Below are positions 4,753 to 52,078 of a stretch of DNA of 64,000 nt, piece by piece. This DNA is from Limnochordaceae bacterium (lineage in GTDB: Bacteria; Bacillota; Limnochordia; Limnochordales; DUMU01). The first letter of the stretch is position 1. The number at the start of each line of letters is the position of its first letter. Position numbers and translations under genes: made by a program. The stretch covers positions 62,001 to 126,000 of the forward strand of contig JADBKQ010000001.1 of the NCBI GenBank assembly GCA_014896305.1, given 5' to 3'. The notes under the pieces are model-generated. The model ran no database searches. It saw only the letters and a list, made by a program, of their open reading frames with translations, and had not been told where the DNA came from.

Positions 4753-6219
4753 CTACAAAGTACCAGCAGCGGCCGGAGCAGTCTGCGCCTGCTGTTCACA
4801 GGCGTACGAAGAGGACGAGATCGTATCTCCCATACCCACCGTGCTCACGGGGTTCGGAATGATGTGGGCCGGCACCGCCAGCAGAACATGGTCTTCGCGG
4901 GCCAGTATGCCCTCGGCCAAAAACTGATCCAGCGCTTGACCGGTAAGCCCCAGGTCCTTCCCGATCAGTTCCAGATTCTTGAAGCCTGTGTCGGACAGCG
5001 CCCACCCGGCTGCCTCCGGCAACTGATCGCGATGCACGTAGCCGCCATAGCGGGCTTTCAACGCATTCACGCAGGAGGCAAACAAGCAGGCCTCCCGCAC
5101 CGCCTCAGGCTCGATGGGATACGGTCGCCGCAGGATCAACACATAGTAACCCAGGTTGTGGATTTGGATCCGCTGGAGATGCAACGCCCGCAACAACTCC
5201 AGACCGCCCAAGTACAATGTGTACGCCGATTCCGCCTGCTCGATCGCATGGGCTTGGTCGGCAAAGCCAAACTCTCGCAAGACCTGGCGGATCTCATTCT
5301 CGTTGATCCCGAAACTGGACATCTCCGCCAGGATGGCTGTCAATACCCGCTTCTCCCGTTCCTCGTCCGCCATGGGTACGTACTCCAGATGCAACCGGAG
5401 TTGCGGGTTGGACGACTTCAAAGCCCGGAGATCGTGCACACTATCGGCCAAATAGGCATCAAGCGAGCGACCGTCTGGCATGGGATCCGTTGCATAGTGA
5501 TAGCCCGCCAAGAAGGCTACATCCAATTGCTGGCCCAACTGCGGCAAGAAGGGGCGCAGTACCGGCGGGAAGCCCATTATGGCCTCCTTCGGCCGGGTAG
5601 CCAGAATCACTCGATTGGCTCTCGGAGTAACGATGGTTTCATCCCCAAAGTGAATGGTTAGCCCCTTGGCATACTCCAAGATCCAGTTAATCTTGGTCGG
5701 GGTCTGCGGGTCCGCCGCCTCCCGGGCAGGGCACCAGCACAATCCGGCCCCTCCCCGCACGGAAGGGCTTATCACTTGAGGGTGGAACAGGCGCGCCTGT
5801 TGAGGGGAGAGAACAGGCGTATAGACCGCAGAGGTCGCACCCAACTCGGCCATCTGGTTCGCAATGATGCCTGCCTGGCCGCCCATGCACTCTTCTTCCT
5901 CAGAAAAATGCCGGTCCAGCCAGCGGAGCAGATCTGGATTACTCACCGTAATGTGAAAGGATTTGCCCGTCCGCAACCGGTCCCTGAGCACCACGAACAG
6001 GTCCTCGGGCGAAACGATCTTTTCCACATCTGCGATGGATCGCTCCGGCAGCTGCCTGGGATCGATCCCAGCAGCCTGCAAGAGGCGAGCGACTGTGGCA
6101 TCATTCACATGAACAACGATATCTACGTTGGTGTTGAAGGCAGCAAACGTCCTTGCAGTAATGGCTCGCGACGTTACCTGGTCCAGGCGTCGTCGCCACA
6201 GTTCGCGCAATTCTTCCAT
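4753..6219 (-). CDS. ADP-dependent sugar kinase (ADP-glucokinase / ADP-phosphofructokinase family)
   Basis: Probable kinase that phosphorylates a sugar or sugar phosphate using ADP instead of ATP as donor (ribokinase fold, PF04587-type family, best known from archaeal modified glycolysis). Supporting motifs are GGQAGIIAN near residue 113, AGYH near 240, HLEYVPM near 281, and the C-terminal NPVSTVGMGD containing the GxGD catalytic aspartate. The 488-residue length fits the family. The ATG at 6217-6219 was chosen because the protein aligns from MEELRELW and a GGGGGG stretch precedes it; the frame is open to 6243. It precedes glgA, suggesting a link to glycogen and glucose use. Whether it prefers glucose or fructose-6-phosphate cannot be told by eye. 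Confidence 0.85.
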   Translation of the reverse strand: MEELRELWRRRLDQVTSRAITARTFAAFNTNVDIVVHVNDATVARLLQAAGIDPRQLPERSIADVEKIVSPEDLFVVLRDRLRTGKSFHITVSNPDLLRWLDRHFSEEEECMGGQAGIIANQMAELGATSAVYTPVLSPQQARLFHPQVISPSVRGGAGLCWCPAREAADPQTPTKINWILEYAKGLTIHFGDETIVTPRANRVILATRPKEAIMGFPPVLRPFLPQLGQQLDVAFLAGYHYATDPMPDGRSLDAYLADSVHDLRALKSSNPQLRLHLEYVPMADEEREKRVLTAILAEMSSFGINENEIRQVLREFGFADQAHAIEQAESAYTLYLGGLELLRALHLQRIQIHNLGYYVLILRRPYPIEPEAVREACLFASCVNALKARYGGYVHRDQLPEAAGWALSDTGFKNLELIGKDLGLTGQALDQFLAEGILAREDHVLLAVPAHIIPNPVSTVGMGDTISSSSYACEQQAQTAPAAAGTL

Positions 6220-6245
6220 GGTTGTCCCCCCAACCGTGCCCATTC

Positions 6246-23866: not shown

Positions 23867-24604
23867 ATGAAGCAGGCGTTCCCTACCCGTCGGATGCTGG
23901 CCGGGCTGGCAGCCATTGCAGTAGCCGTCGGAGCGGTGGCGATCTGGCCCAAGGTCGGCCAGATGCGGGGCAAAGTCTACAAGGATGGTTCATATTTTGC
24001 TGTTTCGGATGCAGACGCTCACGGATATTCTACGGCTCTGGTGACCATCAGCAACGACCGGATCACCCGGGTCGTCCTCAACGAGATCACCGAGAAGGGC
24101 GTGCCGAAGGATTTTTCCACGTATCCGTGGCCGGCGTCCAAAGAGGCCCACGAGAAGCTGCCGGCCCAGTTCGTGGCCAAGAATGGCACTGACGTGGACG
24201 TGATCGCGAAAGCGACCGAGTCTACGAATAAATACAAGCAGGCTGTGGCTCGTGCTCTGGAGAAGGCCCGGGTGTCGCCAACGGACAAGTCAAAGTACTT
24301 CGACGGTACATTTTTCGGTAAAAGCGCCAGCGGTCCACACGGATACGCAGTGACCCGGGTCACAATCAAAGGTGATAAGATTACCGGTGTAGTGTTGGAC
24401 TGGGTCTCCGCCGATGGCACGATGATGGATTGGGCCAACGAGGCCAAGTCGTTCCCGACCGGCGTGAAGGCCCGGGATGAGATGGCCAAGCGCTTTGTCG
24501 AGAAGAACTCGGCAGACGTGGATGTGTTCACAGGTGCGACCAACAGTTCTCAAGCCTATAAAGAGGCTGTAGCCAACGCCCTGAAGACCGCCACGATTCG
24601 TTGA
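23867..24604 (+). CDS. Membrane-anchored protein with two FMN-binding domains
   Basis: Predicted extracytoplasmic electron carrier. An N-terminal hydrophobic anchor (residues ~10-28) is followed by two tandem FMN_bind domains. The second ends in DVFTGATNSS (~219-228), the TGATxS/T motif where ApbE attaches FMN covalently; the first has the altered DVIAKATEST (~112-121), in which the invariant Gly is Lys, so it may not be flavinylated. ATG 23867-23869 was chosen because GAGGAG is 10 bases upstream; an in-frame ATG at 23849 precedes that site. It is followed by a terminator and then the rnf genes, with apbE 6 kb on. It resembles PplA-type flavoproteins of extracellular electron transfer in domain content, though it lacks a lipobox. 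Confidence 0.85.
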   Translation: MKQAFPTRRMLAGLAAIAVAVGAVAIWPKVGQMRGKVYKDGSYFAVSDADAHGYSTALVTISNDRITRVVLNEITEKGVPKDFSTYPWPASKEAHEKLPAQFVAKNGTDVDVIAKATESTNKYKQAVARALEKARVSPTDKSKYFDGTFFGKSASGPHGYAVTRVTIKGDKITGVVLDWVSADGTMMDWANEAKSFPTGVKARDEMAKRFVEKNSADVDVFTGATNSSQAYKEAVANALKTATIR

Positions 24605-24622
24605 ATATCCGTCTTGGCCAAG

Positions 24623-24657
24623 GAGCGGCCCGCACTGGCCGGGCCGCTCTTGTTGTC
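24623..24657 (+). terminator. Terminator after the double FMN-binding gene
   Basis: Perfect 10-bp stem GAGCGGCCCG / CGGGCCGCTC with a 7-base loop, followed by TTGTTGT. The weak T tract may allow partial read-through into rnfC. Confidence 0.75.
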
Positions 24658-24737
24658 CCACTGTGTGCTGTGGCGGCCGTGACCCGGAACCTATGTGGTA
24701 AAGGCATTCCGGAGGGAAGAAAGGAAGGTTGAACGCG

Positions 24738-26093
24738 GTGAAGGGATGGAGGCCAAGGGGATCCTGGCCGAATTCGCCCAGCCTCGGGCGGGGGCGTAGC
24801 CCTGCCAGAGCGCGGCAAAGCCAACCGCTACCCCTGCCCGAGCAGCTGGTTTTTCGCTGCCTCACGCCGGACGGGCAGGCCCTCACACCCACGGTTCGGA
24901 AGGGGCAGACGCTCATGGCGGGGGATGTCTTAGCTCAGGATGCCAAGACGGCCGCCCGGCTATACGCACCGGTCACCGGCTCGGTACTGGATGTCGTATG
25001 GCAAATGACCCCAGGTCAAGGATATCATGCCAGCATCCATTACCGGCCAACTCATGGGAGAACCGCACCGGCAGGGAGCGAGACCGCCCAACCCGTGGCT
25101 GAACCCTCCGCCGGCCCGGCCGGCTCTCCGCAGCAGCGCCTGGCGCAGGCGGCCGCCGTCTGTGGTCTGGATCTGGGTGCAATCATCCGGGCGCCGTTTG
25201 TCGTGGTCAACGGGTGTGAGCCCGACCTGGGTATCGCCACCCGAACCGCCTGGCTGAATGAAAGAACAGCCGACGTAGCCGCCGGTGTCGCCGCGATCGC
25301 GGCGTGCCGTGGAGAGCGGCCTATGTTCCTCGTGACATACGACGGCCAACTGTCTGACGGCGTTCGGCAAGCCCTGGTCCACGACATGTCTCCAGTGCCC
25401 CTGCAACGGATTCCCCTGCACGTGCCGTGGGGTCAAGACGCCTTGTTGGCCCGCTACGTTCAGCGGGTGAAGCATTGGCAGGACTCTCCCCTTGTTGTGG
25501 GGGTAGAGCGAGTCGCTGCTCTAGCCGGAGTTCTTCAAAGAAACATGCCCGTCCCGTCGGTGCTGGTCACGGTAGATGGCGACGCGGTGGACCACCCTGG
25601 CATCTATCGAGTCCCTGTTGGTTCCCGACTGAGCGAGCTCTTACACTTTGCGGGCCTGCGCTCTGACCGCTTGCGGCAAGTGTTGCGGGGAGGCTTTCTC
25701 GCCGGTGAGGCCCTGGCTGATCTGGAGCAGCCTGTCAGCTGGACCGATCTGGCGTTTCTGGCCCTTACCCGCGAGCGAGTGACGGAATCCTTTGCTGGGG
25801 CGGGGATTTGCCTGCGCTGTGGTCGTTGCATCCACGCCTGCCCGGTTCACTTGGTTCCGCACCAGATTGCCCGCTGGGCCAGGGGAGGCCACTGGCAAGA
25901 GGCCCAGGCAGCCGGTGTGGAGCAGTGTGTCCTTTGCGGGCTGTGTGCCTACGCCTGCCCGGCCCGCCTGCCGCTGGTGGCATTGCTTCGCCTCGCACAG
26001 CGGCGGCTGGCACCGTCGCGTTCCGTGCCGCAAGCGATGACGTCAGCAGCTGCCGGGGATAGAGAAGCCAAGGCGGCCGCGTCGGCCAGGTAA
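24738..26093 (+). CDS. Divergent RnfC-like subunit (copy 1)
   Basis: Iron-sulfur subunit resembling RnfC, the cytoplasmic electron-entry subunit of the Rnf ion-translocating complex. The N-terminal biotinyl-like region (KGQTLMAGDVLAQ) and both C-terminal 4Fe-4S motifs (CLRCGRCIHACP and CVLCGLCAYACP) are present. The Gly-rich flavin/NADH loop that canonical RnfC has as GGxGFPT is absent, and NGxECEP is reduced to NGCEPD. It may therefore relay electrons without oxidising or reducing NADH itself. GTG 24738 is preferred (GGAAGG 9 bases upstream); a TTG at 24729 is the alternative. It is the first gene of the rnf run; a canonical rnfC lies at 33135. Confidence 0.8.
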   Translation: MKGWRPRGSWPNSPSLGRGRSPARARQSQPLPLPEQLVFRCLTPDGQALTPTVRKGQTLMAGDVLAQDAKTAARLYAPVTGSVLDVVWQMTPGQGYHASIHYRPTHGRTAPAGSETAQPVAEPSAGPAGSPQQRLAQAAAVCGLDLGAIIRAPFVVVNGCEPDLGIATRTAWLNERTADVAAGVAAIAACRGERPMFLVTYDGQLSDGVRQALVHDMSPVPLQRIPLHVPWGQDALLARYVQRVKHWQDSPLVVGVERVAALAGVLQRNMPVPSVLVTVDGDAVDHPGIYRVPVGSRLSELLHFAGLRSDRLRQVLRGGFLAGEALADLEQPVSWTDLAFLALTRERVTESFAGAGICLRCGRCIHACPVHLVPHQIARWARGGHWQEAQAAGVEQCVLCGLCAYACPARLPLVALLRLAQRRLAPSRSVPQAMTSAAAGDREAKAAASAR

Positions 26094-26143
26094 CTGGCGG
26101 CACTTGGGTCGCTGGTACAGGTAACGGGTGGAGGGGGAGTTTG

Positions 26144-27130
26144 ATGGCTACGATGGCGCAGGAGCGTCAGGCTAGTTCCGAGCCGGTTGCTCCTCGGTTA
26201 TTGCTCAGTAGTTCACCTCACATTCATGCGCCCCTGACGACGCAACAGGCGATGTACACCGTCTTGGCCACGCTCATCCCGGTGTTGGGGGCGGCTATTT
26301 ATGTCTTCGGGTGGCGGTCGGCCTGGATATCGCTGGTTTGCGTGCTGGCGGCTATGGCCACGGAAGCGCTGGCTCAATGGGCCCGTCGCCGTCCGCCGTT
26401 CGGGACGCTGCCAGACGGAAGCGCTGCTGTGACCGGCCTATTACTGGCTCTGACCCTGCCGGCCAGCACCCCCTACTGGATGGCTGTCCTGGGGGCAGTG
26501 GTCTCTATTGCCCTGGGCAAGCAAGCGTTCGGAGGCCTTGGACAGAACGTGTTCAACCCTGCTCTGGTTGGGCGTGTCTTTCTGTTGGTCTCCTTCCCCC
26601 AGTTCTTGGGGAACTTCCAGGGCACCGTACGCGGAGTAGATACCTTGACCGGAGCGACACCGCTAGCCAGTTTAGCACAGAACAAGCCGGTCCCCAGCGT
26701 GCTGCAATTGCTGGCAGGATTCCACCCCGGCTCTTTAGGTGAGACAGTAACTGCCGCCTTGCTGCTGGGAGGCCTGGTCCTGGTCCTCTTCGGGGTCATC
26801 GACTGGCGGATTCCTGTCAGCATTTTTGCCACGGTGGCTCTCTTTGCCTGGGCCAAGGGAACCGACCCACTCGTGCACCTCTTGTCGGGGGGGCTGGTGC
26901 TGGGTGCGATTTACATGGCGACAGACTGGGTGACCAGTCCCGCCACCAGCCTGGGCCGGTGGATTTACGGGATTGCGATCGGTGCCATTACCATGGTCAT
27001 TCGCCTCTGGGGCACGTATCCCGAAGGGGTCTCGTTTGCCATTTTGTTCGTGAACACGCTGGTGCCCCTGATCAACCGGTTCACCCTACCCCGTCCCCAT
27101 GTCACGAAGGAGGTTTCTGCCCGTGCGTAG
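26144..27130 (+). CDS. rnfD: RnfD, membrane flavoprotein subunit of Rnf complex
   Basis: Integral membrane subunit carrying a covalently bound FMN on the outer face. The flavinylation motif DTLTGATPLA lies near residues 166-175, after about five transmembrane helices; FGGLGQNVFNPALVGR is the conserved NqrB/RnfD stretch, and four to five more helices follow. The 328-residue length is normal. ATG 26144 follows GGAGGGGGAG by 4 bases; an ATG at 26153 is also possible. It starts 50 bases after rnfC copy 1, and rnfG overlaps its end. Confidence 0.93.
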   Translation: MATMAQERQASSEPVAPRLLLSSSPHIHAPLTTQQAMYTVLATLIPVLGAAIYVFGWRSAWISLVCVLAAMATEALAQWARRRPPFGTLPDGSAAVTGLLLALTLPASTPYWMAVLGAVVSIALGKQAFGGLGQNVFNPALVGRVFLLVSFPQFLGNFQGTVRGVDTLTGATPLASLAQNKPVPSVLQLLAGFHPGSLGETVTAALLLGGLVLVLFGVIDWRIPVSIFATVALFAWAKGTDPLVHLLSGGLVLGAIYMATDWVTSPATSLGRWIYGIAIGAITMVIRLWGTYPEGVSFAILFVNTLVPLINRFTLPRPHVTKEVSARA

Positions 27131-28199
27131 TTCCACCACACGCATGATCACTGTACTAAGCCTGACAGCGATTCTGTCCGGCGGCGTACTGGCCGGTTTC
27201 TATTCCTACCTTGAGCCCATCATCGAGACCAACCAGAAGAAGGCGGATCTGGAGAGCGGGTTCAAAGGCATTTTCCCACAGGCCGCAGACTTCAAGGAGA
27301 TCTCACCGGCCACCTCTGCCGAGGCTGACGACGCCATCTATCAGGCGATCAGCAGCGACGGCCAGGTGCTAGGCGTTGCGTTCAAGACCACCGGCAAAGG
27401 CTTCGAGGGACCGATCAAAATGGCACTGGGCCTCAGCCCTGACTACTCGAAGCTGGTCGGCGTGAGAGTTTTGCAGATGTCCGAGACTCCTGGCTTGGGC
27501 TCACGGATTCAAGAGCCTGGTTTTACTGACCAATTCAATAACAAACCGCTGACCGACTCGTTCCAGCTAGGTCAGGACGTGGATGGGATCACCGGCGCCA
27601 CCATGTCGTCCCGGGCCGTCGTGACCATCATTCGTGATGGAATCCAGCAGGCCACCCAGCGTCTGGGCAAACCCGTCACCCTGGCCGCGGCTGGTGGGAC
27701 GGCGAGCGCCAGTGGCGAGACTGGCTCGGGTGCGGGCAGCCCCGAGATCACTCCGGTCTCCACCAATCCAGAGGAGGCGTTGGCCAGCATCACGCCGGAT
27801 GTAGCCATGTTTGTCTCGGTGGGCACCTTCCCGGTCAATGGGGCGCCAACCAACCCTGAAGTATATCAGGGCATCGGCTTGACAGGGGAAACTGCCGCGA
27901 TCGGGTTCAAGGCCAGCGCCAAAGGCATGGACGGAGACGTAGTGGTCATCGGGTCGTTGGATGCAACCAAACAAAGGCTCATCGCCGTGCGGGTACTGGA
28001 GCAACACGAGACTGCCGGGTTGGGCGACAAGGTAGCAACGGACGGTACCTTCTTGCATCAATTTGACAACAAGCCAGTCTCGTCTGCCTTTGAGGTCGGC
28101 CAGGATGTGGACGTCATCACAGGCGCGACGGTCTCGTCCAAGGCCGTGGTACAAGCAGTCCGGTATGGCATCGAAGCGGTGAAGGCTTCCGGGCTGTGA
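27123..28199 (+). CDS. rnfG: RnfG-like subunit with two FMN-binding domains
   Basis: Extracytoplasmic, membrane-anchored flavoprotein of the Rnf complex. One N-terminal helix (~residues 8-27) is followed by a first FMN_bind domain with DGITGATMSS (~154-163), a Gly/Ser/Ala-rich linker, and a second with DVITGATVSS (~330-339). Both carry an intact ApbE flavinylation motif. Normal RnfG has one such domain and ~200 residues; this one has 358, so the domain has been duplicated. GTG 27123 was chosen because AAGGAGG is 9 bases upstream inside rnfD; the two genes overlap by 8 bases. Confidence 0.92.
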   Translation: MRSSTTRMITVLSLTAILSGGVLAGFYSYLEPIIETNQKKADLESGFKGIFPQAADFKEISPATSAEADDAIYQAISSDGQVLGVAFKTTGKGFEGPIKMALGLSPDYSKLVGVRVLQMSETPGLGSRIQEPGFTDQFNNKPLTDSFQLGQDVDGITGATMSSRAVVTIIRDGIQQATQRLGKPVTLAAAGGTASASGETGSGAGSPEITPVSTNPEEALASITPDVAMFVSVGTFPVNGAPTNPEVYQGIGLTGETAAIGFKASAKGMDGDVVVIGSLDATKQRLIAVRVLEQHETAGLGDKVATDGTFLHQFDNKPVSSAFEVGQDVDVITGATVSSKAVVQAVRYGIEAVKASGL

Positions 28200-28282
28200 G
28201 CGAACATCAGGGCTTGGGCTGAGCGCCGGCAGCCCGGCGCCACCCTCCTTCAGAATTCGGTTGTGAGGAAGGAGATCGGACA

Positions 28283-28981
28283 ATGGGGAGGACCCTCTGG
28301 AAGGACTTCATGCGGGGAGCATGGAACGAAAGCTCCCCTTTCCGCTTGATGATCGCTTTCTGCCCGGCCCTGGCCGTGACGACTGCAGTCATCAACGGCG
28401 CGGCGATGGGAGCAGCGGTCATCTTCGTGTTGCTGGGCACAAACATCATCGTGTCGCTGATGCGAAAGATTGTCCCCAGTGAGGTACGGATCCCAGTGTA
28501 CACCATTGTGATCGCCACCTTCGTGACCGTAGCCGACCTCGTCCTGGCCGCTACCATGCCGTCCGTGCACAAGGTGCTCGGGTTGTTCGTGCCCCTGATC
28601 GTCGTCAACTGCATCATCCTGGGCCGGGCCGAAGCCTGGGCTTCCCACGTGCCAGTGGCCCGGGCAGCCGCCGACGGCCTGGGATACGGTGTGGGATACA
28701 CCATCAACCTTCTGATGCTGGGCGTGATCCGGGAGCTCTTGGGCAGTGGCACTCTGTTGGGTCATGCCGTCATGCCGGCCGGATTCGTACCGTGGCGCAT
28801 CATGCTGCAGCCGCCGGGAGCGTTCCTGACCATTGGAGTCATCGTCGCGGTGTTCAATCTCACGGGCCGGTTGCAGAAGGAGCGGGCGGAACGGCGGGCG
28901 CAACGGCTGCGCCTGCCTGGCAGAGCAGTCACCGCGGCAGCCGTTGCAGCGGCCAGCGAGGGCAGCGGTTATCATGGGTGA
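28283..28981 (+). CDS. rnfE: RnfE, membrane subunit of Rnf complex
   Basis: Six-helix membrane subunit that pairs with RnfA and holds an intramembrane iron site. Diagnostic stretches are ENPV-like WNESSPFRLMIAFCPALAVT and the conserved Cys motif VPLIVVNCIILGRAE, plus LGYGVGYTINL. The C-terminal ~35 residues are a basic, Arg/Ala-rich extension. The 232-residue length fits RnfE. The ATG has AAGGAG 8 bases upstream. It lies between rnfG and rnfA, as in typical rnfCDGEAB operons. Confidence 0.94.
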   Translation: MGRTLWKDFMRGAWNESSPFRLMIAFCPALAVTTAVINGAAMGAAVIFVLLGTNIIVSLMRKIVPSEVRIPVYTIVIATFVTVADLVLAATMPSVHKVLGLFVPLIVVNCIILGRAEAWASHVPVARAAADGLGYGVGYTINLLMLGVIRELLGSGTLLGHAVMPAGFVPWRIMLQPPGAFLTIGVIVAVFNLTGRLQKERAERRAQRLRLPGRAVTAAAVAAASEGSGYHG

Positions 28982-29079
28982 ACCGTTGACGCCAGTGTCC
29001 AGGACGAAAGCGATAACGAGCGCTGGTGTGGTGGATTGCTGGGTCTGAGGCTTGCCTGCGGGCAGAAAGGGATGGCAGC

Positions 29080-29670
29080 ATGAGTTTCGGGGCACTGATC
29101 CTTCTCTTCGTAGGATCTGCTTTGATCAACAACTTCATCTTGTCACGCTTCCTTGGAATTTGTGCCTTCCTGGGCGTCAGCCGCCGGTTGGACACCGCCC
29201 TCGGCATGGGGGCTGCCGTCGTCTTCGTGATGACGTGCTCGGCCCTTATCAGCTGGGCGATTCAACGGTACCTGCTGACCCCGTTCAAGCTGCAGTTCCT
29301 GGAGTACGTCATCTTCATCTTGGTGATTGCCACCTTCGTACAGCTGCTCGAGATGGTGATCAAGAAGTACAGCCCCTCGCTCTATGAGGCGTTCGGCATT
29401 TACCTGCCCCTGATCACCACGAACTGCTCGATCCTGGGGGTCGCCTTGTTGGTAGCCGGTAGCTCGTACAACCTTCTCCAAACGCTGGTCTTTGCGGTGG
29501 GTAGCGGGCTCGGCTGGACCCTCGCCATCGTGATGATGGCGGGACTACGGGAAGAGCTGGACTTCGCCGATGTCCCGCTCAGTCTGCAGGGCTCTTCGTT
29601 GTCGCTTCTGATCGCTGCCATCATGTCCCTGGCCTTCGCCGGCTTCGCCGGGGTTGTGCCCAACCTGTGA
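29080..29670 (+). CDS. rnfA: RnfA, membrane subunit of Rnf complex
   Basis: Six-helix membrane partner of RnfE. Recognised from NNFILSRFLGICAFLGVS near the N-terminus and from PLITTNCSILGVAL with the Cys that, together with one from RnfE, ligates the intramembrane cluster. The 196-residue length is exactly typical. The frame is open to 29026, but the conserved protein starts at MSFGAL, preceded by AAAGGGA. It follows rnfE after a 98-base spacer with no other feature. Confidence 0.94.
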   Translation: MSFGALILLFVGSALINNFILSRFLGICAFLGVSRRLDTALGMGAAVVFVMTCSALISWAIQRYLLTPFKLQFLEYVIFILVIATFVQLLEMVIKKYSPSLYEAFGIYLPLITTNCSILGVALLVAGSSYNLLQTLVFAVGSGLGWTLAIVMMAGLREELDFADVPLSLQGSSLSLLIAAIMSLAFAGFAGVVPNL

Positions 29671-29681
29671 GGTGAATGATT

Positions 29682-30524
29682 ATGTGGGCCTCAATCGGCC
29701 TCTCCGCAGTGGCTATGGGTGTGTTGGCTATCGCCTTTGCCCTCTTACTGGTGTGGGCCTCTCGCACGTTTGCGGTAAAGAATGACCCTCGTATCGAGAT
29801 GCTGACCAACCTGCTGCCCGGGGCGAACTGCGGCGCTTGTGGCTTTAGCGGCTGTTCCGGTTTTGCCAAGGCGGCTGCCGAAGGCAAGGCTCCGGCAGAT
29901 GGCTGCCGGGCGGGCGGGCCCAGCGTCGCCGCCAAAGTGGCCGAAGTTCTGGGGGTCAAAGCGAGCGGATTCAAGCGGCAAGTCGCCCACGTCTTCTGCA
30001 GCGGGACAGAGGCTTTGGCCAAGCGCTCTGCCGATTATGAAGGCTGGGAGGATTGCCGGGCAGCGGACCTGGTGGGCGGAGGTGGCAAGGATTGCGCCTT
30101 CGGCTGCCTGGGCCTGGGAACGTGCGTCAAGTCATGCCTGTTCGGTGCTCTCAGCATGGGCCCCGATGGCCTGCCTATCGTCGATACCGAGCGCTGCACC
30201 GGCTGCGGCATCTGTGCGCAAGTCTGCCCTCGCGGTGTCATCCAGTTGGTCGACGCTGACCGGCGAACCTTTGTCAACTGTGTATCGCCTGCGCCCGGCA
30301 AGCTGGTCCGCCAGGTGTGCAGCGCCGGTTGCATCGCCTGCAATATCTGCCAGCGCACCTGCGAGACCGGCGCGATTCACGTGGTGGACAACCTCGCCAT
30401 CATCAACCCGGACGCTTGTACCGCTTGCGGCAAGTGTGCAGCGAAGTGCCCCACCCACGTCATCGAATGCCTCGGACCCCAGGAGGAGGCAGAGCCGTTG
30501 GCGGCAGGGCAGGCAGTACAATAG
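29682..30524 (+). CDS. rnfB: RnfB, iron-sulfur subunit of Rnf complex
   Basis: Ferredoxin-accepting subunit on the cytoplasmic side. An N-terminal helix (~residues 5-26) anchors it; the motif NCGACGFSGCSGFA plus a later DGC binds the first 4Fe-4S cluster, and three further Cys-rich segments follow (CLGLGTCVKSC, CTGCGICAQVCP, CNICQRTC with CTACGKCAAKCP). Length 280 residues. ATG 29682 is preferred with GAGGTG 7 bases upstream; the ATG at 29676 is only one base from that site. It follows rnfA directly and precedes apbE. Confidence 0.94.
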   Translation: MWASIGLSAVAMGVLAIAFALLLVWASRTFAVKNDPRIEMLTNLLPGANCGACGFSGCSGFAKAAAEGKAPADGCRAGGPSVAAKVAEVLGVKASGFKRQVAHVFCSGTEALAKRSADYEGWEDCRAADLVGGGGKDCAFGCLGLGTCVKSCLFGALSMGPDGLPIVDTERCTGCGICAQVCPRGVIQLVDADRRTFVNCVSPAPGKLVRQVCSAGCIACNICQRTCETGAIHVVDNLAIINPDACTACGKCAAKCPTHVIECLGPQEEAEPLAAGQAVQ

Positions 30525-30616
30525 GCAGCGATGCGTACGAGTGTCTCGTGGGAGAGGATGGTGGCTATTTGGTAAGGCCAGGGTGGACATCCGGCCGGGC
30601 AGGGGGCTGTGGTTCG

Positions 30617-31786
30617 ATGGGAGTCGCCAGCCTCGCGCGGGGGTTGGTAAGTATCATGGCCGTTGTGAGCCTGGCCGGATGTCAGCTGCGCAGCCGGCCC
30701 GAAGAGAGCAGGACACCGGCACCTGCGACCGAGGCAGCAAGCCAGACGGCCACAGTCAGCTCGTTCACCATGGGAACGTACGTGACCGTGCAGGCCACGG
30801 CGACCACGGCCGAGAAGGCTCAAGAGGCAGCCGACGCAGCCATCCGTGCACTCAGCGAGCTTTCCGATGAAGTTGACCGTTTCTTGCCAGCCAGCCCCGT
30901 CTCCCGAATCAACCAGGCGGCTGGAAACGGGCAGTGGGTGACGGTCAGCCCCCGGCTCTTCACACTGCTGCAGAAAGCCAAGCAGGCAGCGGAGTTGACC
31001 GACGGAGCGTTTGACCCTACCGTCGGCCCGCTGGTCGACTTGTGGGGATTCGTGGAGGTCTCTGACACCCAGGCGGGTTCAGGCTCGACGGCAGCCGGGT
31101 CTGAGGATGAAACGGGCACGGCACAAGTAGGCCCGGCTCCCATCGTGGGCCGGAAACCCCCAAGCCAGGAGGCGATTGAGCGAGTCTTACCGCTGGTGAA
31201 TTACCACGACCTCGAGCTGGACGCTGCCACCCACTCGGCCCGACTCCGGCGGCGCGGTCAAGTGCTGGACCTGGGAGGCATCGCCAAGGGGTATGGGGCA
31301 GAGTTGGCCGCCAGGATGCTCCAGGAGAGCGGGGTGACACAAGGTCTGGTAGATCTGGGAGGCAACATCTTTGCCCTTGGTCACAAGCCTGACGGTACAC
31401 CCTGGCGAGCCGGCATCAAGGATCCTCGGAATGCCGGGGCGTTGCAGGCGGTGGCCGTGTTACCGGTGGCGGACACGGCCCTGGCTACCTCCGGTGACTA
31501 TGAGCGTTATTTCATCTATGAGGGAGTGCGGTACAGCCACCTGCTCGACCCTCACACGGGATATCCAGCCCGGTCGGTCATGAGCGCAACCGTTATCACC
31601 CCCGATGGGGCCATGGGAGATGCGCTTTCCACGGCAGCCTTCGTGGTTGGCCCGGAAAAGGGTCCGGCGTTGCTCAGCAAGGCCGGAGCGGAGGGAATCT
31701 GGATTCGGCCGGACTTTTCCGTGATCGCGACGCCCGGAATCCGACCCGAAGTAGAGCTGCGCGGACGGGCACACTGGGCGCAATGA
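30617..31786 (+). CDS. apbE: ApbE, FAD:protein FMN transferase (lipoprotein)
   Basis: Extracytoplasmic enzyme that transfers FMN from FAD to Thr/Ser in flavinylation motifs such as those of RnfD, RnfG and the FMN-binding protein at 23867. A lipoprotein signal ends in SLAGC (Cys22). Catalytic-domain motifs are FTMGTYVTV, FDPTVGPLVDLWGF, DLGGIAKGYG, GLVDLGGNIFALG and the Mg-binding GDALSTAAFV; HLLDPHTGYPA is also present. An ~30-residue Gly/Ser/Glu-rich insertion occurs near 155-185. The 389-residue length is otherwise normal. The ATG fits the lipoprotein N-terminus, though its Shine-Dalgarno is weak. Its stop overlaps the ATGA of the next frame. Confidence 0.93.
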   Translation: MGVASLARGLVSIMAVVSLAGCQLRSRPEESRTPAPATEAASQTATVSSFTMGTYVTVQATATTAEKAQEAADAAIRALSELSDEVDRFLPASPVSRINQAAGNGQWVTVSPRLFTLLQKAKQAAELTDGAFDPTVGPLVDLWGFVEVSDTQAGSGSTAAGSEDETGTAQVGPAPIVGRKPPSQEAIERVLPLVNYHDLELDAATHSARLRRRGQVLDLGGIAKGYGAELAARMLQESGVTQGLVDLGGNIFALGHKPDGTPWRAGIKDPRNAGALQAVAVLPVADTALATSGDYERYFIYEGVRYSHLLDPHTGYPARSVMSATVITPDGAMGDALSTAAFVVGPEKGPALLSKAGAEGIWIRPDFSVIATPGIRPEVELRGRAHWAQ

Positions 31787-31851
31787 CGCACCTGAACGGA
31801 CTTGCACGACGAGGCTGCATGAAGATGAAGGGGAAGGAGGGAGATTCATCG

Positions 31852-32931
31852 TTGACCAGCAAGGAAGAGATGGCAACGCAACTCTGCCCCGCAGTAGCAA
31901 CTTCCGTCCCTGGCGCGGAGGGGGTTTTACCCCTGCCAGTGCGGCGGGAGATGGGTCACAGCTGGCTGTGGGGCAAGCAAAACGTCACTGGCTCCGTGGG
32001 GACACAGAAAGTTGCCCGACTGGGTCTGTTGCTGGCCATGGCGGTAGGCCTGCAGGTCTTCGAAGGCCAACTCCCCTCTTTACCCATCCCCGGGGCCAAA
32101 CTCGGGTTGGCCAACCTGGTTTCCCTCCTCGTGATCCTGCTATGGGGCTGGCGCGAGGCCATGTTGGTCGTCCTCACCCGCCAGTTCCTGGGTTCGCTGG
32201 CTACAGGTACATTCCTGTCCACCCCCTTTTTCTTCGGCCTTGCGGGTGGGGTAGCCAGCGTGGTCACCATGTCCTTGGCGGCGCCGCGCCGCAAAGCCCG
32301 GCTTTCCCCTATCGGGATCAGCCTCATCGGCGCCATCACCCATAACTGCACCCAGTTGCTGGTGGCCTGGGCGATCACCAGCGTGCCCGCGATCCTAGGA
32401 TACCTCCCCTTCTTGCTCTGGTTCTCCTTACCGGCTGGAGCACTGGTCGGAGCGCTGGCCCAGCTTCTCTGGCCCCGCCTGGCCCAGTTGAACCGGGTGG
32501 CCCAGGCGTTGGGGACGGTCACGGAAGATGAACCCCAGACCCGGCAAGGGCTGTACCGACGGTTCACTCTGGCAGATGCAGGGGTCGCCGTAATGGTAGC
32601 CCTCGTCGCTGTCGGCCTGACCGTGTTTCGCCAAGCTCAGACCGCTCCCGTGGCCCATCCAGTCGCTGTAATCGCCGTCAATGGCCGGGTGAAGGAGCAG
32701 ATCCCGCTGGACCAGAACCGCCAGTTACTCCTGGATGTGAACGGCGGGCACATGATCATCGAGACTGTTCCTGGCAAAGTACGGGTGTTGACCTCCACCT
32801 GCCCAGACAAGATCTGCGTTCGAACGGGTTGGATCAGCGCTGCCTCCCAGGCGATCGTCTGCGTTCCCTACCGCACGGTGATACGGATTCAAGGAGGTCA
32901 ACCGGTCGACTACGATGTCATTAGCAGTTGA
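31852..32931 (+). CDS. Fused Gx-family membrane protein and NusG domain II protein
   Basis: Two families that are usually separate neighbouring genes are joined here. The N-terminal half is a Gx-transporter / heptaprenyl-diphosphate-synthase-component-I-like membrane domain with about six helices (GAKLGLANLVSLL and ATGTFLSTPFFFGLAGG are characteristic). After another helix (~residues 243-260) an extracytoplasmic NusG-domain-II segment contains STCPDKICVRTGW and IVCVPYRTVI with three conserved-looking Cys. The families occur near apbE and in flavin-based electron transfer loci. TTG 31852 is chosen because AAGGAGG lies 11 bases upstream; ATG 31783 (overlapping apbE) and 31819 are alternatives. 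Biochemical role unknown. Confidence 0.82.
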   Translation: MTSKEEMATQLCPAVATSVPGAEGVLPLPVRREMGHSWLWGKQNVTGSVGTQKVARLGLLLAMAVGLQVFEGQLPSLPIPGAKLGLANLVSLLVILLWGWREAMLVVLTRQFLGSLATGTFLSTPFFFGLAGGVASVVTMSLAAPRRKARLSPIGISLIGAITHNCTQLLVAWAITSVPAILGYLPFLLWFSLPAGALVGALAQLLWPRLAQLNRVAQALGTVTEDEPQTRQGLYRRFTLADAGVAVMVALVAVGLTVFRQAQTAPVAHPVAVIAVNGRVKEQIPLDQNRQLLLDVNGGHMIIETVPGKVRVLTSTCPDKICVRTGWISAASQAIVCVPYRTVIRIQGGQPVDYDVISS

Positions 32932-32997
32932 TGGCCACGCCTCTCTCCTTTGCGAACTCTGTCCCCGCTGGGCTGGCCGGATGGGATCGTAAAAGAA

Positions 32998-33015
32998 CTG
33001 TGAAGGGATTCACAA
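32998..33015. promoter_or_regulatory. Rex-like operator upstream of rnfC copy 2
   Basis: CTGTGAAGGGATTCACAA matches the Rex consensus TTGTGAA-N4-TTCACAA at 13 of 14 specified positions and contains the palindrome TGTGAA-GGGA-TTCACA. It lies 6 bases upstream of the -35 box at 33022. Confidence 0.65.
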
Positions 33016-33021
33016 ATACCC

Positions 33022-33050
33022 TTGACTCATGGCGTGCTGACTGTTAAAGT
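33022..33050 (+). promoter_or_regulatory. Promoter of rnfC copy 2
   Basis: TTGACT (33022-33027), 17-base spacer, TAAAGT (33045-33050), about 75 bases before the start codon. Confidence 0.6.
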
Positions 33051-33134
33051 CAGCTTAGAGGTTCTCGACGTATCATGAGGGCGCAGTATCGATGGAATCG
33101 TGAAAGTTCCCACTATCTCAGAGGAGGCTCCAGC

Positions 33135-34586
33135 ATGTGGCGGCTCTTCCCCGGTGCCCAACGAGCTGGTGGACGAGTGAGGGTTCCCGAGCATAAGGGA
33201 ACCGCTTCGTCGGCGTCATCCCATCTGCCCGCTCCCCCCAGGATCTATCTGTCCCTGCAACAACACGCAGGCCGTCCTTGCCAGCCGATCGTCCGGGCGG
33301 GCGAGCGCGTGGTCATCGGCCAGGTAGTGGCCCAACCCGACGGGTTGGGCGCTCCAATTCACAGTCCGGTTTGCGGAAAAGTATCGGCCATCACTTTGTG
33401 GCCGCATCCTTCCGGCCAATTCGTCCCGACCATCATCATCGACAATGATGGTGGAGACACGGTTCTTCCCCTGGACCGCTTGGGCCTGGAAGCGGCCGGT
33501 TCACCTGAGGTCATGGAGCCTGCCGACATCCGTCGTTTGGCTCAGGACGCCGGGTTGGTCGGCCTGGGTGGCGGACTATTCCCTACCAGCGTCAAGCTGA
33601 CCCCACCCCCGGGGTGCCAGATCGATACAGTGATCATCAACGGGTGCGAGTGTGAGCCTTACCTGACCTGTGACGATCGGCTGATGCAAGAGCAGACCGC
33701 CACCCTGGTATGGGGAGCCCGGGCCATTCGGCGGGCCGTCGGCGCCACGCACCTCCTCTTTGCTGTGGAAGAGAATAAACCGGCGGCCATCGCTGCTTTG
33801 CGCCTGGCCATTACGGGTCTGGCCAACGCGGAAGTGAAGGTGCTTCCTTCCCGCTACCCACAAGGCAGCGAGCTTTGCCTGGTACGGGTGCTGACTGGCC
33901 GCGAAGTGCCGGTTTCGGGAATCCCGGCGCAAGTTGGAACGCTGGTACAAAATGTTGGAACTACTGTTGCCCTGGGTCAGGCCCTGCAAAAAGGCCGGCC
34001 GCTGACCGAACGATTGGTGACGGTGGCTGGCGACCTCGTCCAAAAGCCAGGCAACTACTGGATTCCGCTCGGGACGCTGATCCAGGATGTGTTACAAGCG
34101 GTAGGAGTAGACACGAGTCGCCTGCGTCATTTGCTCATGGGCGGCCCGATGATGGGACAGTCCCTGGGCCGGTTGGATGTACCGGTCATCAAAGGGACCG
34201 GGGGTATCCTCGCTTTCTCTTCCGTCACGCTGCCTACGCTTGAACCGCAGCCTTGCGTCCGTTGCGGCATGTGCGTCAAGGTCTGTCCGCAAGGCCTGAT
34301 CCCTTTCCGATTGGGCCGGCTGGCTCAGGCAGGGCAGTGGCAACAAGCCGCGCAAGAGGGGCTGTGGTCCTGTATGGAATGCGGTAGCTGCGTTTACGTC
34401 TGCCCCAGCGCCCGTCCCACCGTACAACTGGTCCGGATGGCCAAGGCAGCGCTCCGGCAGGAGCAGCAACGCCGGCAGCAAGCGCAGCCGGCACCTTCTC
34501 CCCGCACGGTGGCGCCAGCGACAGCCGCCAGCAATACCAGCGCTGGTGCGAAAGTGAAACAGCCAGTTGCCGCCAAGGTTTCGTAG
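33135..34586 (+). CDS. rnfC: RnfC, NADH-interacting iron-sulfur subunit (canonical copy 2)
   Basis: Electron-entry/exit subunit of the Rnf complex. It has the flavin/NADH loop GLVGLGGGLFPTSVKL (~140-155), the adjacent INGCECEPYLTCDDRLM, and two 4Fe-4S motifs CVRCGMCVKVCP and CMECGSCVYVCP, then an Ala/Gln/Pro-rich tail of about 50 residues. ATG 33135 follows GAGGAGG by 7 bases; the frame is open to 33075. Length 483 residues. It is set apart from the main rnf run by a 203-base gap with its own promoter and a Rex-like site, so its dosage may be controlled separately. In most rnf operons rnfC is the first gene. Confidence 0.93.
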   Translation: MWRLFPGAQRAGGRVRVPEHKGTASSASSHLPAPPRIYLSLQQHAGRPCQPIVRAGERVVIGQVVAQPDGLGAPIHSPVCGKVSAITLWPHPSGQFVPTIIIDNDGGDTVLPLDRLGLEAAGSPEVMEPADIRRLAQDAGLVGLGGGLFPTSVKLTPPPGCQIDTVIINGCECEPYLTCDDRLMQEQTATLVWGARAIRRAVGATHLLFAVEENKPAAIAALRLAITGLANAEVKVLPSRYPQGSELCLVRVLTGREVPVSGIPAQVGTLVQNVGTTVALGQALQKGRPLTERLVTVAGDLVQKPGNYWIPLGTLIQDVLQAVGVDTSRLRHLLMGGPMMGQSLGRLDVPVIKGTGGILAFSSVTLPTLEPQPCVRCGMCVKVCPQGLIPFRLGRLAQAGQWQQAAQEGLWSCMECGSCVYVCPSARPTVQLVRMAKAALRQEQQRRQQAQPAPSPRTVAPATAASNTSAGAKVKQPVAAKVS

Positions 34587-51028: not shown

Positions 51029-52078
51029 TCACGACGCCCTAGTCGCGACAGCTGATACCGAATGACGAGAAGCCGGAATCCAGGAGTGCTTCACCGTATG
51101 CTCCTCCGCATACCCTTCCACTTCCCGGATCGACGTAAGGGCCCCATCAGCCGGGCAGGCTTCCACGCACTTCAAGCAGCCCTTACAGTACTGGTAGTCA
51201 ATGCCCTTCAACGACATGACAGGACGCTGCCGCTTGTCCAAGGTCTTCTCCCAGACAAAGCAAAAGTCTGGACAGACGAGGTCACATTGCCCGCAGTCAA
51301 TGCACTTGGTACGGTCGAAGGCCGGGATGAAGCCACTACGATAAGCACTCAGATCCTTGAGCACGTTGTTGCCCGGGTTGACAATGACGCCCCCGACTGG
51401 CGCCGTCACGTAACCCAGCTGTGGCCGCGCCCGTACGAACTCCGTTGCTTGCGCCGTGGCCGTGCCGTGCAAGGTCTCCTTCTGGACTTCGTTGTAGCCC
51501 CGGTCGAAGGTGCGCAAGTTCGCCTCCACCAGTTGCGGATAGCGGTGCTCGAACGTTGCTCGAATCGTATCCCGCATGGCCTGTGACTCCAAGAACGGGA
51601 GCAGACGAGCGATAGCCCCGAGCATGGCCGTATTGACCCGGGTCTTCTCTTCCACTGCTATCTTGAGCGCGTCCACCACCGCGACCGTGCCGGACGCCAG
51701 GCCCAAGCGCTTTTTCATCTCATCGAGCGTATGGGCAGTATTGACCAGCACGATACTGTCGGGGTACAGTCCGCTGAGAACTTCTTTATGCCGGAGCAAT
51801 CGCTCGTGGAAGACGACCAGCATGTGAGGCCTCTCCACCGGGCTGTTGGTCCTGACCTGCTGCGTGGGAGCGCAAACTCGCACAAATGACTTGACTGGCG
51901 AACCCTTCTTTTCCGACCCATACGAGGAGAAATGGGCACCATTCAACCCCATCCGCAGCACCGCTGCTTCCGCCAGCATCTGGCCGGCCAGGTGGGCTCC
52001 CAACCCACCAATGGACTCAAAGCGAATTTCATAAAACCCCAGCGAATTGGTTACTGGTAATTGGGGAACCTGATCCAT
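51029..52078 (-). CDS. 2-oxoacid:ferredoxin oxidoreductase, fused gamma-delta subunit
   Basis: Partner of the alpha-beta polypeptide. Residues ~15-200 match PorG (gamma): IRFESIGGLGAHLAGQML and GSEKKGSPVKSFVRV. Residues ~245-330 are a PorD-type ferredoxin with two 4Fe-4S motifs, CIDCGQCDLVCPD and CKGCLKCVEACP, that move electrons from the buried cluster to external ferredoxin. Length 349 residues. The ATG has GGGGG upstream. It is first in a two-gene operon whose promoter at 52264-52293 overlaps a perfect palindrome; the ~180-base leader contains a stable hairpin. Together the two genes encode all four classical subunits in two chains. Confidence 0.9.
   Translation of the reverse strand: MDQVPQLPVTNSLGFYEIRFESIGGLGAHLAGQMLAEAAVLRMGLNGAHFSSYGSEKKGSPVKSFVRVCAPTQQVRTNSPVERPHMLVVFHERLLRHKEVLSGLYPDSIVLVNTAHTLDEMKKRLGLASGTVAVVDALKIAVEEKTRVNTAMLGAIARLLPFLESQAMRDTIRATFEHRYPQLVEANLRTFDRGYNEVQKETLHGTATAQATEFVRARPQLGYVTAPVGGVIVNPGNNVLKDLSAYRSGFIPAFDRTKCIDCGQCDLVCPDFCFVWEKTLDKRQRPVMSLKGIDYQYCKGCLKCVEACPADGALTSIREVEGYAEEHTVKHSWIPASRHSVSAVATRAS

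Follow-up and report, generated by a model that had tools for sequence, protein, structure and literature searches.

A complete Rnf operon of Limnochordales with its own flavin-attachment genes and two non-equivalent RnfC proteins, one of them predicted to lack the FMN/NADH site

The Rnf complexes of Acetobacterium woodii and Clostridium tetanomorphum and the Rnf1 of Azotobacter vinelandii share six subunits, covalent-FMN motifs in RnfD and RnfG, cluster cysteines in RnfA and RnfE, and a canonical RnfC. In published structures RnfC sits on the arms of RnfD, and electrons pass from the RnfD riboflavin through the two RnfC clusters to FMN and then to NAD (PMC9588780, PMC11889175). The Rnf of Methanosarcina acetivorans does not use NAD, and its RnfC carries two 4Fe-4S motifs (PMC4023990), whereas NqrA of Na+-NQR is an RnfC homologue in which the FMN/NADH function and also the two [4Fe-4S] clusters have been lost. 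Accessory flavin genes are described from Listeria, where the extracellular electron transfer (EET) locus comprises EetA, EetB, FmnB/ApbE, PplA, Ndh2 and DmkA/B; EetB (PF07456) binds FAD and acts as the ECF-S subunit in the export of FAD to ApbE, and deletion of eetA gives no EET phenotype (PMC9973259). Clostridial Rnf clusters have Gx and NusG_II, apbE and a multi-FMN RnfG beside rnf (PMC9973259, PMC8238504), and one survey counts 572 genomes of the class Clostridia in which eetB adjoins Rnf and 14 genomes with an EetA-EetB fusion (PMC9973259). It has been proposed that multi-flavinylated RnfGs give electrons an additional path to acceptors outside the cell (PMC8238504).

The window analyzed here is a stretch of 64,000 nucleotides from a Limnochordaceae bacterium (family DUMU01 of the order Limnochordales, termed f1; host assembly 2.56 Mb, 92% complete). 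Pfam and NCBIfam profiles confirm ten genes on one strand (+) at 23867-34586, with the gene set and positions given in an initial annotation. The first gene (23867..24604) encodes a membrane-anchored, PplA-like protein with two FMN_bind domains (PF04205 in two stretches, E 5e-15) and is followed by rnfC1 (24729..26093), an RnfC paralogue with both [4Fe-4S] sites and no recognizable FMN/NADH site. The rnfD gene (26141..27130; PF03116, E 7e-107) and rnfG (27099..28199; PF04205 in two stretches, E 2e-32) precede rnfE (28283..28981; PF02508, E 3e-55, and the RsxE model) and rnfA (29026..29670; TIGR01943, E 3e-75; Pfam E 1e-57), the likely start of the latter being an internal ATG at about 29080. 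The ferredoxin-side polyferredoxin is encoded by rnfB (29676..30524; RnfB models with FeS and Fer4 domains), and the cluster cysteines of RnfE, RnfA and RnfB are all conserved. The FAD:protein FMN transferase gene apbE (30617..31786; PF02424, E 4e-87), with the lipobox LAGC at the N terminus of its product, is followed by an EetB-EetA fusion (31783..32931) of a Gx domain, the putative ECF-S FAD exporter (PF07456, E 1e-38, with a weak ECF_trnsprt match), and NusG_II (PF07009, E 9e-24). The last gene is rnfC2 (33075..34586, likely start 33135; TIGR01945, E 1e-139), a canonical NAD-linked RnfC. RnfA, B, C, D, E and G are all present and linked, and the locus is a complete Rnf operon with its own flavin-attachment genes.

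Upstream, the unit is bordered by a large gene on the opposite strand that is protease-like as judged from its sequence; on the downstream side lie an ORF with no annotation and a gene for an M20 peptidase. A pyruvate:ferredoxin oxidoreductase subunit is encoded at 51029-52078, ~17 kb downstream of the rnf unit; this enzyme is a supplier of reduced ferredoxin. The gap of ~200 bases between the fusion gene and rnfC2 contains a weak promoter-like match, and because of both features rnfC2 may be expressed or regulated apart from the rest of the operon; the total of 3 promoter-like matches does not exceed chance (1.9 expected). Terminator-like matches are above chance (18 found, 8.5 expected). Between the double-FMN gene and rnfC1 a GC-rich hairpin of ten base pairs followed by TTGTTGT (window 24623-24649) may attenuate transcription; the same gap is only about 10 bases in the relative L088. 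An Rfam scan gave no riboswitch or other RNA.

Compared with the three Rnf systems named first, the window shares the six subunits, the RnfD/RnfG motifs, the RnfA/E cluster cysteines and a canonical RnfC in the form of RnfC2, and adds a second RnfC without the FMN/NADH site, a duplicated RnfG, the PplA-like protein, apbE and the FAD exporter. The difference from the clostridial clusters, as these are described (PMC9973259, PMC8238504), is the presence of two RnfCs including an NAD-blind RnfC1. Gx, NusG_II, ApbE and a double-FMN_bind protein are shared with the Listeria EET locus, which differs in that no Ndh2 or Dmk genes are seen in the window locus, the FMN protein has no lipobox, the genes are linked to Rnf and Gx serves FAD export. 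The order FMNx2-rnfC-rnfD-rnfG(2x)-rnfE-rnfA-rnfB-apbE-Gx/NusG is also found in the other f1 genomes (G001, G002), in f6 (G015, G020) and in f10 (G024), and f3 (G004, G007) has the same order without FMNx2. Scattering of these genes in relatives had been named at the outset as the result that would count against a common unit, and conserved linkage is what the synteny comparison gives. In 9 of the 11 genomes searched all FMN_bind domains are confined to the rnf locus, the exceptions being G001 and G024 with a single outlying domain apiece, and because of this confinement and the recurrence of the order across families the linkage of rnf with the flavin genes is not accidental.

The Gx/NusG_II fusion is best read as a flavin supply for ApbE, with export predicted, because the Listeria EetB exports FAD (PMC9973259) and an ECF-T gene (CbiQ family) adjoins the fusion, convergent with it, in the relatives G004, G007, G015 and G020. 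The EetB and ApbE components of a Listeria-type EET system are represented in this way, by family match and by ECF-T adjacency in relatives. The cluster-encoded membrane Ndh2 of the operational definition of such systems (PMC8238504) was not found among the ten locus genes or the scanned neighbors, and the scanned neighbors contain no other EET-type gene. A role for Gx/NusG_II as an electron carrier in an extracellular chain was dropped, EetB being a FAD exporter and the eetA deletion lacking an EET phenotype (PMC9973259). The same families together with apbE had also been taken as an EET marker; eetB beside Rnf is common, in the 572 genomes already mentioned, and is therefore no such marker. 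Most of the apparent merger of Rnf with EET is an Rnf operon with its own flavin-attachment kit, because eetB beside Rnf, EetA-EetB fusions and multi-flavinylated RnfGs have all been published.

Flavinylation was scored with the motif D-x-x-[S/T]-G-A-[S/T], which is intact in RnfD (one copy, DTLTGAT, by alignment) and in domains 1 and 2 of RnfG (TGAT, TGAT). RnfG has more than one FMN_bind domain with the motif, as in the multi-flavinylated class, and its two domains are 40% identical to one another and therefore represent an internal duplication, seen also in the orthologues. The domains of the double-FMN protein are likewise 40% identical to each other; the motif is intact in domain 2 (TGAT) and reads DVIAKAT in domain 1, and in G001 both domains have AKAT. 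Mutational work summarized in PMC12052999 indicates that loss of the acceptor threonine abolishes flavinylation and that other single changes in the motif reduce it only partly, and for this reason the AKAT domain may be partly flavinylated. Four covalent FMNs, possibly five, are thus predicted from the intact motifs in RnfD, the two RnfG domains and domain 2 of the FMN protein together with the AKAT of domain 1. A hydrophobic anchor is present at the N terminus of the double-FMN protein, which has no Cys in its first 40 residues, hence no lipobox, and scores 46 of 325 bits against the NCBIfam PplA model; of the features that characterize the PplA lipoprotein, it has neither the lipobox Cys nor the pair of canonical motifs. 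The host assembly contains four FMN_bind domains in total, all in the rnf locus, and a second apbE-family gene lies elsewhere in the genome (G000:C1:281357-282178), with no FMN_bind protein outside the rnf locus. An outer branch through the extra flavins to an external acceptor is possible, as proposed for multi-flavinylated RnfGs (PMC8238504).

The new feature of the locus is the predicted non-equivalence of its two RnfCs, RnfC2 being canonical and RnfC1 lacking the FMN/NADH site; the initial annotation had listed both genes and missed this difference. RnfC1 scores below the RnfC cut-off (146 vs 246 bits) and gives no match to the Complex1_51K domain (PF01512, FMN/NADH), for which RnfC2 scores 155-159 bits. 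In all three family orthologues of RnfC1 the glycine-rich loop GxGGxxFP is deleted and the NG-x-E-x-E-P-x-L-T motif is replaced. Using positions that reach 90% conservation or more among 38 canonical RnfCs drawn from many phyla (RnfC2 itself among the 38), RnfC1 retains 9 of 31 columns in the FMN/NADH domain compared with 30 of 31 for RnfC2, whereas in the ferredoxin domain it retains 13 of 14, including all eight cysteines of the two C-terminal 4Fe-4S sites, compared with 14 of 14. RnfC2 accordingly has the FMN/NADH domain and two 4Fe-4S sites expected of an RnfC, and RnfC1 lacks the former. Identity among RnfC1 orthologues is 36-48% in the FMN domain vs 53-54% in the ferredoxin domain, and among RnfC2 orthologues 57-79% vs 54-65%. 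The pattern looks like release of the NAD function in RnfC1 with maintenance of the electron-transfer part, and the gene is intact in all three f1 genomes. In its AlphaFold model (pLDDT 85.7) RnfC1 still has the RnfC fold. Since RnfC1 is without the FMN/NADH motifs, a reading of the two rnfC genes as two NAD sites was rejected. Literature searches covering only a minority of subscription journals gave no account of a bacterial RnfC blind to NAD, nor of an operon with two rnfC genes.

The same motifs are missing, with the cysteines kept, from the sole RnfC of G004 and G007 (f3) and of G005, G008, G010 and G012 (f4), which are all the other Rnf-bearing relatives found in the order Limnochordales. 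A whole-genome search of these six f3/f4 relatives, three of them single-contig assemblies, gave no other RnfC. PF01512 scores, which are independent of the motif definitions used here for the control loci, are 137-167 bits for canonical RnfCs, 76-77 for f3 and 24-31 for the f4 genomes searched. Aligned relatives from other families of the class keep the RnfC motifs, and in a control set of 79 other RnfC loci across many phyla the glycine loop is present in 78 and E-x-E-P in all 79. The single control without the loop is an Oscillospiraceae RnfC (L136:9703-11049) in which it is replaced by SAGIVDAENGEPPVWWK and the ECEP motif is kept, which may reflect an alteration of the FMN site that arose independently. 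A locus with two rnfC genes was seen in the window family only, with none elsewhere among 80 fetched loci or in 250 genomes of the phylum (E 1e-25). In the RnfC tree the degenerate RnfCs group on one side of a branch with support of 82/88 when the FMN domain is included and 64/34 when it is left out, a pattern that would fit one basal loss of the FMN/NADH site in the order.

These features are probably best read as one Rnf operon with flavin-loading genes that would link ferredoxin to NAD via RnfC2 and would have a second, NAD-independent head in RnfC1 and a doubled flavin outlet. The Gx/NusG_II fusion would export FAD as an ECF-S subunit, and ApbE would place FMN on the anchored double-FMN protein as well as on RnfD and RnfG. 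Reduced ferredoxin would donate electrons to RnfB, from where they would cross the membrane by the RnfA/E cluster to the outward RnfG flavins and return via RnfD. Docking of RnfC2 on RnfD is predicted to give an ordinary ion-translocating ferredoxin:NAD+ oxidoreductase. In the form with RnfC1, electrons would reach the two [4Fe-4S] clusters and not NAD, because an RnfC without FMN could still take up electrons on its clusters and should be unable to reduce NAD; this form could either pass single electrons to a cytoplasmic acceptor other than NAD or have no cytoplasmic exit, in which case the outlet would be the double-FMN protein together with the second flavin of RnfG. Assembly of both RnfCs with the same core is inferred from operon position. 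A broader proposal is offered tentatively, as plausible: that the Rnf of Limnochordales is NAD-independent, the RnfC Fe-S sites being kept, the FMN/NADH site lost and ferredoxin oxidation coupled to another acceptor, and that in the window family the output head is exchangeable between two forms, of which one is NAD-linked and the other is not. The M. acetivorans Rnf, compared here through its published description, is a precedent for an Rnf independent of NAD; that system differs in being archaeal, in having a multihaem cytochrome and methanophenazine, and in that a second RnfC is unmentioned (PMC4023990).

A somewhat unlikely alternative is an ordinary ferredoxin:NAD Rnf with maturation genes, in which RnfC1 is a non-catalytic structural or decaying protein resembling NqrA and the extra FMN domains do nothing beyond the normal RnfG shuttle. 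RnfC2 is fully canonical, Gx and apbE are common with Rnf (PMC9973259) and NqrA provides a published cofactor-free RnfC homologue (PMC12174285), all as this account would have it. However, the eight cluster cysteines are present in every RnfC1 orthologue, whereas NqrA is defined by loss of both the FMN and the Fe-S sites, and the RnfC1 model is structurally nearer to solved RnfCs (TM 0.74-0.77) than to NqrA (0.44-0.61). It also has to contend with the degenerate RnfC being the sole RnfC in six relatives of the order and with an RnfG duplication that retains both motifs in f1.

It is less likely still that the Rnf with a degenerate RnfC is a ferredoxin:quinone oxidoreductase in respiring relatives, the fermentative window family having kept or acquired RnfC2 for NAD and retaining RnfC1 as an inherited head of the quinone era. 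COX1 is present in the searched f3, f4, f6 and f10 relatives and absent from all three f1 genomes, DUMU01 is called fermentative in a published comparison (PMC11456536), and an NAD-independent Rnf reduces methanophenazine in M. acetivorans (PMC4023990). The futalosine menaquinone genes are absent in the window family, and a MenA-like prenyltransferase is present, just below its family cut-off. The grouping of the degenerate RnfCs on one branch points the same way, but is weak at 64/34 without the FMN domain, and RnfD has no sign of the extra quinone-binding N-terminal helices of NqrB, as inferred from the alignment and PMC12174285.

A merged Rnf and EET system, in which ferredoxin electrons reach an external acceptor by way of RnfG and the PplA-like protein, is improbable, since the doubled RnfG and anchored FMN protein in an operon that holds every FMN_bind domain of the genome, the lack of the oxidase COX1 in the window family (where an external sink could help) and the published proposal for multi-flavinylated RnfG (PMC8238504) stand against an EetA/EetB part that is a FAD exporter and no wire (PMC9973259), a PplA-like protein with one of two motifs canonical (none in G001) and no lipobox, the lack of Ndh2 in the locus or scanned neighbors, and f3 and f4 relatives without the FMN protein.

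The preferred reading, of one operon with two output heads, suggests that the little-studied bacteria of this group run Rnf partly without NAD. Rnf is routinely annotated as a ferredoxin:NAD+ oxidoreductase, in cultured Limnochordia as well (PMC11456536), and energy models built on that annotation would be wrong if the RnfC of Limnochordia is unable to bind NAD. The order would then offer natural Rnf variants with the outward limb and the NAD limb uncoupled, and with two heads the cell could alternate between acceptors for a single ion pump. The window family, whose operon encodes an RnfC of each kind, makes the range of Rnf acceptors directly testable.

Several other arrangements were observed in the relatives. 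In f4 (L052:11997-14207, L053, L054, L055) RnfD is fused to an RnfG with a single FMN_bind domain, and in this protein the covalent-FMN motif of RnfD is lost and the riboflavin-site regions look conserved; with this fusion, the motif loss and the degenerate RnfC, the predicted f4 Rnf is strongly altered. A purely outward, or half, Rnf in f4 was rejected, as RnfC keeps the Fe-S cysteines and a return path is still possible. Class relatives contain a second rnf-like cluster (L085:9222-15549 in G051, with similar ones at L072 in G034 and L080 in G045) in which rnfC is canonical, RnfD carries five fused FMN_bind domains (1288 amino acids in all), rnfE and rnfA are divergent and no rnfB was found nearby; from its gene content it looks like a flavin wire running from NADH to the outside or from the outside to NAD. 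In G004 a NuoF/formate-dehydrogenase-beta-like gene and a RuBisCO large subunit gene adjoin the rnf operon (L178:6046-10068). In the window itself, 4753-6243 on the reverse strand (-) encodes a protein of the ADP-dependent phosphofructokinase/glucokinase family (PF04587), a family best known from archaea, and lies beside a starch/glycogen synthase gene.
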